A DNA stretch of 47,864 nt from Thermoflexus sp. GTDB lineage: Bacteria; Chloroflexota; Anaerolineae; Aggregatilineales; Aggregatilineaceae. The DNA is taken from NCBI GenBank assembly GCA_020724465.1, contig DYGX01000025.1, forward strand, positions 1-47,864, in the 5' to 3' direction. The translations under genes and the position numbers were made by a program. The notes below the pieces were generated by a model, which saw nothing but the letters and a program-made list of their open reading frames with translations, was not told the origin of the DNA and ran no database searches. Positions 12,982-15,231 of this stretch are shown one piece after another; position 1 is the stretch's first letter, and every line of letters begins with the position of its first letter.

Positions 12982-13647
12982 CTACCGACCGTGTTTACCG
13001 TTCCAGCTTCGGCTGGCCTTGCGCTCGCCGGTCCCCCTCTGGGCCGGGGCGTCGTGCGACGGATCCGGTCGAGCATCCTGCGCCTGGTTTTCGACCAGAT
13101 CCTGCACAAAGCCGGGCAGCCGCACATGGAAGAAGCGCCGCCCCGCAAACACCAGCATGACCACAACCCACAGCAGCAGCCACCACACAATACGGGCGCT
13201 CTGCAATAACGCCGCGACGACAACACCGAGGTACATGGGAGCCTGGAAGATCACCGCCAGCGTGTTGGCGCGCTCGTTTTGCCCGCGGAAAATCCATCCC
13301 CACACGGCGACGTACAACGCGGCGAGAAACGGCGAAAGATAGCCGGCAAACGACAGAAACAACAGCAGCGCGACGCTAAAGGCGATGTCGAAGGTCAGAT
13401 CGTGCGCGCCAATCCAGGTTTGTTGGGTCACCTGGCTGAGGCGGGCAAAATACCCGTCCAGCGTGTCCAGCGTCGCCGCGAGCAGCAGCAGAACCAGCGC
13501 CGCCTGGACACCGTCCTTGCCGCGCGCGATGCCCAGCCAGACCAGCGCCAGCGCCAGCGGCCCGCGCGCCAGTGTGCACAGATCGGCCACCTTCTTTTGC
13601 CAGGGATAGGCAACACGGTCTTTGTCGGGTTCGGTCGTCATGGTCAT
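12982..13647 (-). CDS. CDP-alcohol phosphatidyltransferase-like membrane protein
   Basis: 221 residues from ATG 13647. About six membrane segments surround DTLDGYFAR, the core of the CDP-alcohol phosphotransferase signature D-x2-D-G-x2-A-R. The second half of the signature is looser than canonical: Gly, Asp and Asp occur as G-x2-D-x3-D (GAHDLTFD) after 10 residues, where G-x3-D-x3-D after 8-9 is normal. It may therefore be a divergent or altered-specificity member of the phospholipid-head-group family. The C-terminal 40 residues are polar and basic. It is a single gene with non-coding DNA on both sides. Confidence 0.7.
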   Translation of the reverse strand: MTMTTEPDKDRVAYPWQKKVADLCTLARGPLALALVWLGIARGKDGVQAALVLLLLAATLDTLDGYFARLSQVTQQTWIGAHDLTFDIAFSVALLLFLSFAGYLSPFLAALYVAVWGWIFRGQNERANTLAVIFQAPMYLGVVVAALLQSARIVWWLLLWVVVMLVFAGRRFFHVRLPGFVQDLVENQAQDARPDPSHDAPAQRGTGERKASRSWNGKHGR

Positions 13648-13763
13648 CCCGTCAACTGCCTGAACTTGCCGCCATCTGTATCTTCTCCGGCCATGCGCCC
13701 GCTGTCTTGCGGCATAATCATAACACGTCTGGCGGCGTGCCAGGAAGGCGGCTCGACGAGATT

Positions 13764-13792
13764 TTGACAGCGGGCATCGAACATGGTATTGT
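13764..13792 (+). promoter_or_regulatory. Sigma70-type promoter of the candidate small RNA
   Basis: TTGACA at 13764-13769, a 17-base spacer and TATTGT at 13787-13792. Both hexamers and spacing fit a housekeeping promoter and would start RNA near 13799. No plus-strand gene follows before the terminator at 13860. Confidence 0.6.
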
Positions 13793-13798
13793 AACGTC

Positions 13799-13890
13799 AC
13801 TTCGCAAATTACTCTTTGCACTCGCCACGATTTTTTGATTTGGAAGATTCCGTTCCAGCGACTCCTCACCCGTTGGTGAGGAGTCTTTTT
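13799..13890 (+). ncRNA. Candidate small structured RNA of about 90 nt
   Basis: The segment is bracketed by a consensus-like promoter (13764-13792) and a perfect rho-independent terminator (13860-13890). It has no ATG and no ribosome site. Within it are two short hairpins, GCAAA/TTTGC near 13804-13819 and TGGAA/TTCCA near 13841-13857, and a U-rich single-stranded stretch (GATTTTTTGATTT) between them, followed by the terminator stem. It resembles no RNA family I know. It could be a trans-acting sRNA or a terminated leader upstream of the LacI-family gene; the separate promoter at 13966 favours an independent RNA. Confidence 0.5.
13860..13890 (+). terminator. Perfect rho-independent terminator
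   Basis: GACTCCTCACC (13860-13870), loop CGTT, GGTGAGGAGTC (13875-13885), then five T. The 11-bp stem has no mismatch and the T-run is only on the plus strand. No plus-strand protein gene lies upstream of it for over 8 kb, so it must end a non-coding or leader transcript. Confidence 0.85.
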
Positions 13891-13943
13891 GCCTGCTGCC
13901 CGGCCCAACGACCAACAAGCACACTTCCATTCTCAGAGATTTT

Positions 13944-13957
13944 TGCAAACGTTCACA
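13944..13957. promoter_or_regulatory. LacI-type operator O1
   Basis: TGCAAACGTTCACA, a dyad centred on AACGTT with a CG centre as in LacI/PurR-family operators. It lies just upstream of the -35 at 13966. Confidence 0.6.
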
Positions 13958-13965
13958 CGAATTTC

Positions 13966-13994
13966 TTGACAACGGTTTCAAAGCATTATATGCT
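13966..13994 (+). promoter_or_regulatory. Promoter of the LacI-family regulator gene
   Basis: TTGACA at 13966-13971, 17-base spacer, TATGCT at 13989-13994. The -35 lies inside operator O2, so a bound repressor would block polymerase. The 5' leader would be about 160 bases. Confidence 0.6.
13967..13980. promoter_or_regulatory. LacI-type operator O2 overlapping the -35
   Basis: TGACAACGGTTTCA matches the same TGA-AACG-TT-TCA dyad as O1 and O3 and covers the -35 hexamer of the putative regulator promoter. Confidence 0.6.
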
Positions 13995-14075
13995 GATGAC
14001 AAACAGGCTTGCATGCTGCAAGCGGATGATTGGGCCGACAAATACTTTTGTGCGCCCCATCTTGGCCTGACATTG

Positions 14076-14089
14076 TGAAAACGTTGTCA
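14076..14089. promoter_or_regulatory. LacI-type operator O3 in the leader
   Basis: TGAAAACGTTGTCA is self-complementary at 12 of 14 positions, the best of the three sites. It is 96 bases after O2 measured centre to centre (109 from O2 start to start), downstream of the predicted transcription start, suitable for looping or roadblock repression. Confidence 0.65.
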
Positions 14090-14160
14090 TGATGGCCGGG
14101 CGCCATCCCGTTGTATAACCGGGTTCCGACGGGCACGGGTTTACAGGATTTTGGCAGCGC

Positions 14161-15231
14161 ATGACCACCCGCGGCAGGAAGAACTCCAGTATCACAATTG
14201 TCGATGTCGCCCGCGAGGCCGGGGTCTCATACTCGACGGTTTCGCGCGTGGTCAACGACAACTCGCACGTCCGCCCCGAAACCCGCGCCAGAGTCTTGAA
14301 CGCAATGCTGCGGCTGGGCTATGTGGTCAACCAGCAAGCGCGCAGCCTGCGTGGAGGACGCTCGCAGGTTATCGGCGTGCTGGTTCCCGATGTCGGCAAC
14401 ACGTACATCGGCGCCATCATCCAGGGCATCGACAGCGAGCTGGCCGCGCGCCAGTACCACCTTATGCTATACACCACCCATCGCCGCAAAACCAAAGAAT
14501 CGGCCTATGTGACCACCATCACGCGGGGGATGGCTGACGGACTGCTTTTGCTGCTGCCCACCAATGTCGAAGCGTATATCGAGTCGCTCCAGAAACTGCA
14601 GTTCCCGCATGTGCTGGTCGACTACCAACATGTTGAAAACGCATTCACGTCCACCGTGCAGTCGACCAACTGGCAGGGGGCCTACGACGCGACCCGCTAT
14701 CTGATCGAGCTGGGCCACCGGCGCATTGGCTATATCGTCGGGCAGCGGGAAATGCAGTGCTCGCTCGACCGCCTGGCCGGTTACCGCGCGGCCCTGGCCG
14801 ACGCCGGGCTTCCTATCGACCCAGAGTTGATCTATCCGGGCGATTTTTACCGCCCACAGGGCTATATGGCCGCCAACCACTTCTTGAGCCTGCCCAACCC
14901 GCCAACCGCCATCTTCGCAGCCAACGATCTGTCGGCTTTTGGGGTGATGGACGCCGTGCTCAACAGCGGGCGACGGATTCCCGAAGACATCTCGGTCATC
15001 GGCTTCGACGACATCCTCGAAGCCGGGCACGTGCATCCGGGCCTGACGACCGTCCGCCAGCCCCTGGAAGAGATGGGGCGCGTGGCGGCGCAACTGCTGC
15101 TCAAACGTCTGGACAACCCGGATCTGCCTGGCGAGCGTGTTGAAATGGCTACCGAGCTGATCGTGCGTGACTCGTGCGCTCCGGCCCGCGAAGGCGTGGG
15201 TATCCCGCCGGAAGTTTCCCGGCGATACTGA
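14161..15231 (+). CDS. LacI/GalR-family transcriptional regulator
   Basis: 356 residues. The N-terminal helix-turn-helix and hinge, ITIVDVAREAGVSYSTVSRV at residues 11-30 followed by GYVVNQQARSLRGGRS, are textbook LacI family. The rest is a periplasmic-binding-protein-like effector domain with VIGVLVPDVGNTY, the GHRRIGYI strand and the C-terminal FDDILEAGHVHPGLTTVRQP. It should bind the three CG-centred operators just upstream and so control itself, and probably the sugar importer that starts 48 bases downstream. The effector is presumably the imported sugar. Confidence 0.93.
   Translation: MTTRGRKNSSITIVDVAREAGVSYSTVSRVVNDNSHVRPETRARVLNAMLRLGYVVNQQARSLRGGRSQVIGVLVPDVGNTYIGAIIQGIDSELAARQYHLMLYTTHRRKTKESAYVTTITRGMADGLLLLLPTNVEAYIESLQKLQFPHVLVDYQHVENAFTSTVQSTNWQGAYDATRYLIELGHRRIGYIVGQREMQCSLDRLAGYRAALADAGLPIDPELIYPGDFYRPQGYMAANHFLSLPNPPTAIFAANDLSAFGVMDAVLNSGRRIPEDISVIGFDDILEAGHVHPGLTTVRQPLEEMGRVAAQLLLKRLDNPDLPGERVEMATELIVRDSCAPAREGVGIPPEVSRRY

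Follow-up and report, generated by a model that had tools for sequence, protein, structure and literature searches.

A predicted small-RNA gene, bracketed by promoter and terminator, next to a lacI-type gene in Thermoflexus sp.

We consider it reasonably likely that the intergenic region upstream of a LacI-type regulator gene in Thermoflexus sp. contains a gene, equipped with a promoter and a Rho-independent terminator of its own, for a small RNA of about 92 nt that acts in trans through pairing of its linker. The first-pass annotation of the window (the entire 47,864-nucleotide stretch of DNA analyzed here) had proposed an independently transcribed small RNA at this site, and the anatomy of the predicted transcript, together with the conservation of its promoter and terminator in a relative, supports this proposal as the best explanation. 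The unit has the anatomy of a small-RNA gene, is present in a single copy in its 4.4-Mb genome (G000), and is selectively conserved in promoter, stems, and linker in one relative (G001). As judged from the DNA sequence, the feature is real and very likely functional. It probably represents a regulatory RNA that is ordinary in kind and previously undescribed, and the best reading of its distribution would be a restriction to the genus.

Table 1. Predicted features of the small-RNA locus and of the genes that flank it.
Feature	Positions	Strand	Basis or remark
CDP-alcohol phosphatidyltransferase-like gene	12985-13641	-	Pfam PF01066, E 0.00099, 20 bits vs. cut-off of 22
Sigma-70-type small-RNA promoter, TTGACA-N17-TATTGT, extended -10 (TGG)	13764-13792	+	Motif scan
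Predicted small RNA, ~92 nt	13799-13890	+	Positions of promoter and terminator
5' hairpin, GCAAA-UUACUC-UUUGC, 5 pairs, 6-base loop	13804-13819	+	Folds of both sequences
Linker ACUCGCCACGAUUUUUUGAU, candidate base-pairing seed	13820-13839	+	Unpaired in window fold, identical in both genomes
Second small hairpin, weak, 6 pairs, 7-base loop	13840-13858	+	Window fold
Intrinsic terminator, 11 pairs, 4-base loop, T5	13860-13890	+	Motif scans
Promoter of lacI-type gene	13966-13994	+	Motif scan; separate from small-RNA promoter
LacI-family regulator gene	14161-15231	+	Followed by genes for an ABC transporter solute-binding protein and two permeases

The TTGACA-17-TATTGT promoter and the 11-bp, T5 terminator described by the first-pass annotation are both present (Table 1). 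The -35 hexamer (13764-13769) is separated by a 17-bp spacer from the -10 hexamer (13787-13792), and a TG dinucleotide is positioned one base 5' of the latter. The terminator stem-loop (13860-13885) reads GACTCCTCACC-CGTT-GGTGAGGAGTC, i.e., 11 perfect pairs, and is followed by TTTTT. Transcription would start at A13799, about seven bases 3' of the -10 hexamer, and the RNA would end in the T run; from its sequence, a short non-coding stretch is enclosed by a promoter and an intrinsic terminator of its own. When both strands of the whole window were scanned under strict criteria (promoter matching at least 10 of 12 positions; stem of at least nine unbroken pairs followed by T5; spacing of 50-250 bases), 13764-13890 was the sole promoter-terminator pair, and under the same criteria none was found in 100 first-order Markov simulations of the window. 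The window contains four promoters and one terminator of this strict quality, compared to 0.49 and 0.02, respectively, per simulated window. A loose scan of positions 13000-15000 was less telling, with two promoter-like sites vs. 0.8 expected and six terminator-like sites vs. 1.9 expected.

The 96-nt strand spanning 13797-13892 folds better than all of 200 dinucleotide shuffles (z -3.65). This fold energy is largely that of the terminator; the RNA body without it accounts for -8.3 of -29.4 kcal/mol. Two extra hairpins noticed in the first-pass annotation are both found in the window fold, but they are weak (five and six pairs), weaker than had been implied, and the second is absent from the minimum-energy fold of the G001 sequence, which pairs this region, plus part of the linker, differently.

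Of the two other genomes of the genus, G001 (88% identity) carries the RNA unit flanked by the same genes; it is the sole relative found to keep both neighbors in this order, and its lacI copy ends at the contig end after 65 codons. Poor conservation in relatives possessing the flanking genes, which the first-pass annotation had named as evidence against a small-RNA gene, was not observed, since promoter and terminator are both kept in G001. Between the two genomes, the promoter differs at two of 29 columns, neither of them inside a hexamer, the RNA body at three of 61, and the terminator at five of 32. There are 27 differences in the 122 columns of the spacer that precedes the promoter, and 19 in the 47 columns of the spacer that follows the terminator (13891-13937), the latter being the least conserved segment measured. 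As is looked for in an intergenic trans-acting small RNA, the unit is conserved above the flanking non-coding DNA in the two genomes: promoter and RNA together differ at 11 of 128 columns vs. 81 of 326 other non-coding columns (p = 5e-5), in a comparison that covers these two genomes only and leaves out the lacI promoter. A plainer control, which counted stretches of the same length that were as conserved anywhere in shuffled columns, gave only 0.022; for the fixed place, the value was 0.0007.

Substitutions within 13799-13890 follow the predicted structure. With column classes set after the alignment had been seen, stems are changed at one of 44 positions, loops at five of 17, the linker at none of 20, and other positions at one of 11; the difference between stems and loops has a p value of 0.005. 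The structure used is the consensus of the two sequences, but identical pairs result from the window sequence alone, which had been folded before a relative was found. Among the two homologous sequences found, the sole stem change (A13861 to G) is one-sided and keeps a G-U pair. In the G001 terminator, three of the four loop bases are changed, compared to one of the 22 stem bases (still G-U paired), and the 5' hairpin has one change in its loop and none in its stem.

This pattern bears on two rival readings. The promoter-like site could have arisen by chance beside a terminator that insulates lacI from stray transcription, a role that intergenic terminators can also serve; in line with this, no convincing homologue was found outside the two genomes. 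We regard this as quite improbable, since it leaves the conservation of the promoter hexamers, of the linker (none of 20 positions changed), and of the 5' hairpin stem unexplained. The region might instead encode a tiny protein. In agreement with the absence of a start codon claimed in the first-pass annotation, ATG does not occur in the stretch from the expected start of transcription to the terminator; TTG codons are present, however, the first of them at 13816. It opens a frame of 84 codons that extends to 14070 and runs through the terminator, and open frames crossing the small-RNA region exist on both strands. A tiny protein gene starting at this TTG or at another weak start is nevertheless extremely improbable: the frame would cross both the terminator and the lacI promoter, no Shine-Dalgarno sequence is evident by eye for it, the changes follow stem and loop, and the least conserved segment (13891-13937) falls inside the frame.

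As stated in the first-pass annotation, no plus-strand gene that would need the terminator was seen upstream; the neighbor on this side is the minus-strand phosphatidyltransferase-like gene. A TATGAT on the minus strand (13717-13722) lies ahead of this gene and is kept in G001, while no good -35 was seen by eye. If this TATGAT is the -10 of the phosphatidyltransferase gene, its mRNA would start before the small-RNA region, and the transcripts would not overlap. A one-base gap in G001 at about 13716 shifts the open frames that connect the start of the phosphatidyltransferase gene with the small-RNA region. The phosphatidyltransferase open frame comprises 244 codons in G001 vs. 316 here.

On the other side, the RNA lies on the same strand as lacI, and its terminator is located about 270 bases upstream of this gene. 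Attenuators typically consist of a leader followed by a terminator, and the region might thus be a regulated, attenuator- or riboswitch-like 5' leader of lacI, in which transcripts from 13764 stop at the terminator under some condition and otherwise run on to 14161; this would add a second, conditional promoter to the regulator gene. Several findings make such a leader unlikely. The lacI-type gene has its own promoter-operator just downstream; this separate promoter, claimed in the first-pass annotation, was located at 13966-13994 and is conserved in G001, with two of 66 differing columns in the promoter-operator region (13938-14003). Conversely, the stretch between terminator and lacI promoter, through which a leader would extend, is the least conserved segment. 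No competing antiterminator fold approaches the terminator in strength: when the 3' arm of the terminator is kept unpaired, the two sequences reach at best -10.2 and -11.6 kcal/mol, vs. -29.4 and -30.0 kcal/mol, in a check by folding both sequences without ligand or trans factor. Nor was any riboswitch match to Rfam found.

A LacI-type operator-like sequence, TGACAACGGTTTCA, at 13967-13980 overlaps the lacI promoter, and a second copy is present at 14076-14089. These two LacI-type operators (TGACAACGKTTTCA), in opposite orientation and 109 bases apart in the lacI promoter and leader, are both unchanged in G001, and several lacI relatives in other genera also possess paired operator-like sites, as noted by eye. 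Such paired operators at lacI, recurring in relatives, suggest that the lacI-type gene may be autoregulated, perhaps by looping. A TTGACA promoter was found upstream of all six inspected lacI relatives in other genera. The small-RNA promoter contains no LacI-type operator at up to two mismatches. Just 3' of the lacI promoter, at 14007-14023, there is a short hairpin, GCTTGC-ATGCT-GCAAGC, whose stem is kept in G001 while its loop differs at four of five positions (by eye), an indication that the lacI leader may contain a conserved hairpin.

Returning to the small-RNA gene itself, a covariance search of the whole window against Rfam 15 yielded no matches at the gathering score. A permissive search of 13600-14200 (E up to 10) gave a match to Ysr276 at 13733-13758, upstream of the RNA, with E 2.5 and 9.8 bits vs. 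a gathering score of 100, and was discarded. The statement of the first-pass annotation that no RNA family matches was thus borne out at both thresholds. In blastn searches of 61 genomes, G000 and G001 alone matched at E <= 0.001; every one of the 61 gave some match at E <= 10, and the best of those in the remaining genomes covered 25 bases on the promoter side, in G004 (E 0.0043). A covariance model, R1, was built from the window copy and the G001 copy. Among 154 genomes of the order, it scored strongly in G000 and G001 alone (E about 1e-25 and 4e-26), and among 396 genomes of the class, a sample evidently without G001, which would match, it found G000 alone at E <= 0.001; both searches used stricter filters, with which some weak matches are lost. 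The covariance search in related genomes proposed in the first-pass annotation as a check thus recovered the G001 copy, but none that is convincing in other genera.

Weak R1 matches in five genomes (G084, G068, G070, G018, and G085; best E 0.02-0.96) were taken as chance. In the alignments of four of them (all except G085), what the matches have in common with R1 is mostly hairpins or scattered letters, and tblastn (1e-10) on the fetched loci of about 3 kb revealed no lacI or phosphatidyltransferase relative. All five genomes fall in one family (f2), which the chance reading leaves unexplained. The third genome of the genus, G002, yielded no copy of the RNA unit, an absence that says little because this genome is 73% complete and its neighbor genes are distant (48% identity for the phosphatidyltransferase, 39% for the lacI relative). 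A search for the arrangement of plus-strand promoter and subsequent terminator in other genomes found it neither in up to 450 bases upstream of lacI relatives in six of them (L060-L065) nor upstream of phosphatidyltransferase relatives in five (L043-L047; up to 450 bases, 255 for L043); L046 and L047 each contain one shorter terminator-like site without a preceding promoter match in the scan. Applied to L060-L069 (L066-L069 by model only), R1 gave a single match, in L063, with 11.2 bits and on the minus strand. An exact search of viral contigs with a 29-base pattern found no match, and two plasmid records matched the query, both in the lacI part alone. A possible second copy, a linker similarity of 26-28 bases at G000:C4 with a counterpart at G001:C1 (89 and 86% identity), was rejected. 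These two loci are 91% alike, and the similarity lies, in the sense direction, within an open reading frame that both retain; it was therefore taken as neither a second copy nor a target.

How might the RNA work? Transcription from its own promoter to the terminator would give a non-coding RNA of about 92 nt, in which the small hairpins and the terminator hairpin would serve as stabilizing ends, and the unchanged 20-nt linker would pair in trans with one or a few mRNAs. Small RNAs usually contact their targets through base pairing. We searched G000 and G001 for sites complementary to 15 bases of the linker, allowing up to two mismatches. Beyond the gene itself, five sites were found in each genome, compared to four and two for a reversed control pattern, and no convincing mRNA partner emerged in either; one of the G001 sites is the coding match at G001:C1. 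The complement site AAAAAGCGTGCCGAG (two mismatches) occurs once in each genome. In G000, it starts 42 bases past the end of a 479-codon frame that is antiporter-like by reading of its sequence alone, and no frame of at least 120 codons starts just after it. Duplex energies with the starts of 33 genes were unremarkable (best z -1.7) in a set limited to the window, whose 38 rows contain five genes entered twice by name and mechanical gene calls that include doubtful frames.

The lack of a convincing mRNA partner would also fit a small RNA that binds or sequesters a protein and does not pair with mRNAs, and the conserved hairpins and unchanged linker fit such a role equally well. Nothing positive points to it, and we hold it to be improbable: the genome has no Hfq match, and the repeated motif carried by CsrB-type sponges is not seen by eye. 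In searches with the Hfq profile (PF17209), none of 18 genomes matched (G000 and 17 relatives of the order), while the control was positive in five of 14 named genomes. The RNA is therefore very unlikely to depend on Hfq. A small RNA pairing through its linker would have to work without this protein, as is the case for many small RNAs in Gram-positive bacteria. We tentatively propose, as a possibility that falls somewhat short of an even chance, that the RNA is a genus-specific regulator in Anaerolineae whose action is independent of Hfq and relies on an invariant U-rich linker.

Taken alone, this is one more orphan small RNA of a known kind. A narrow search of the open-access literature, covering titles and the starts of abstracts, returned nothing on small RNAs of Chloroflexota. 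The well-delimited, conserved candidate gene offers a defined starting point for studying how such RNAs function in this phylum, and, if our reading is true, a genus-specific RNA would give tractable first access to small-RNA control in a group on which that search found little written.

Trans-encoded intergenic small RNAs of bacteria possess their own promoter and intrinsic terminator. The RNA described here resembles them in its sigma-70-type promoter, its predicted length of about 92 nt, its short 5' hairpins, its conserved unpaired stretch, its terminator hairpin with U tail, and its site between two protein genes; it differs from described members in that it has no covariance match to any Rfam 15 family and belongs to a host group without an Hfq match. 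With the Hfq-dependent small RNAs of enterobacteria it shares a U-rich unpaired stretch before a terminator with U tail, whereas Hfq was matched in none of the 18 genomes searched. Like attenuator and riboswitch leaders, it would be a 5' RNA that ends in an intrinsic terminator upstream of a gene on the same strand; unlike them, it is followed by a lacI-type gene that has its own conserved promoter, and it forms no strong antiterminator fold.
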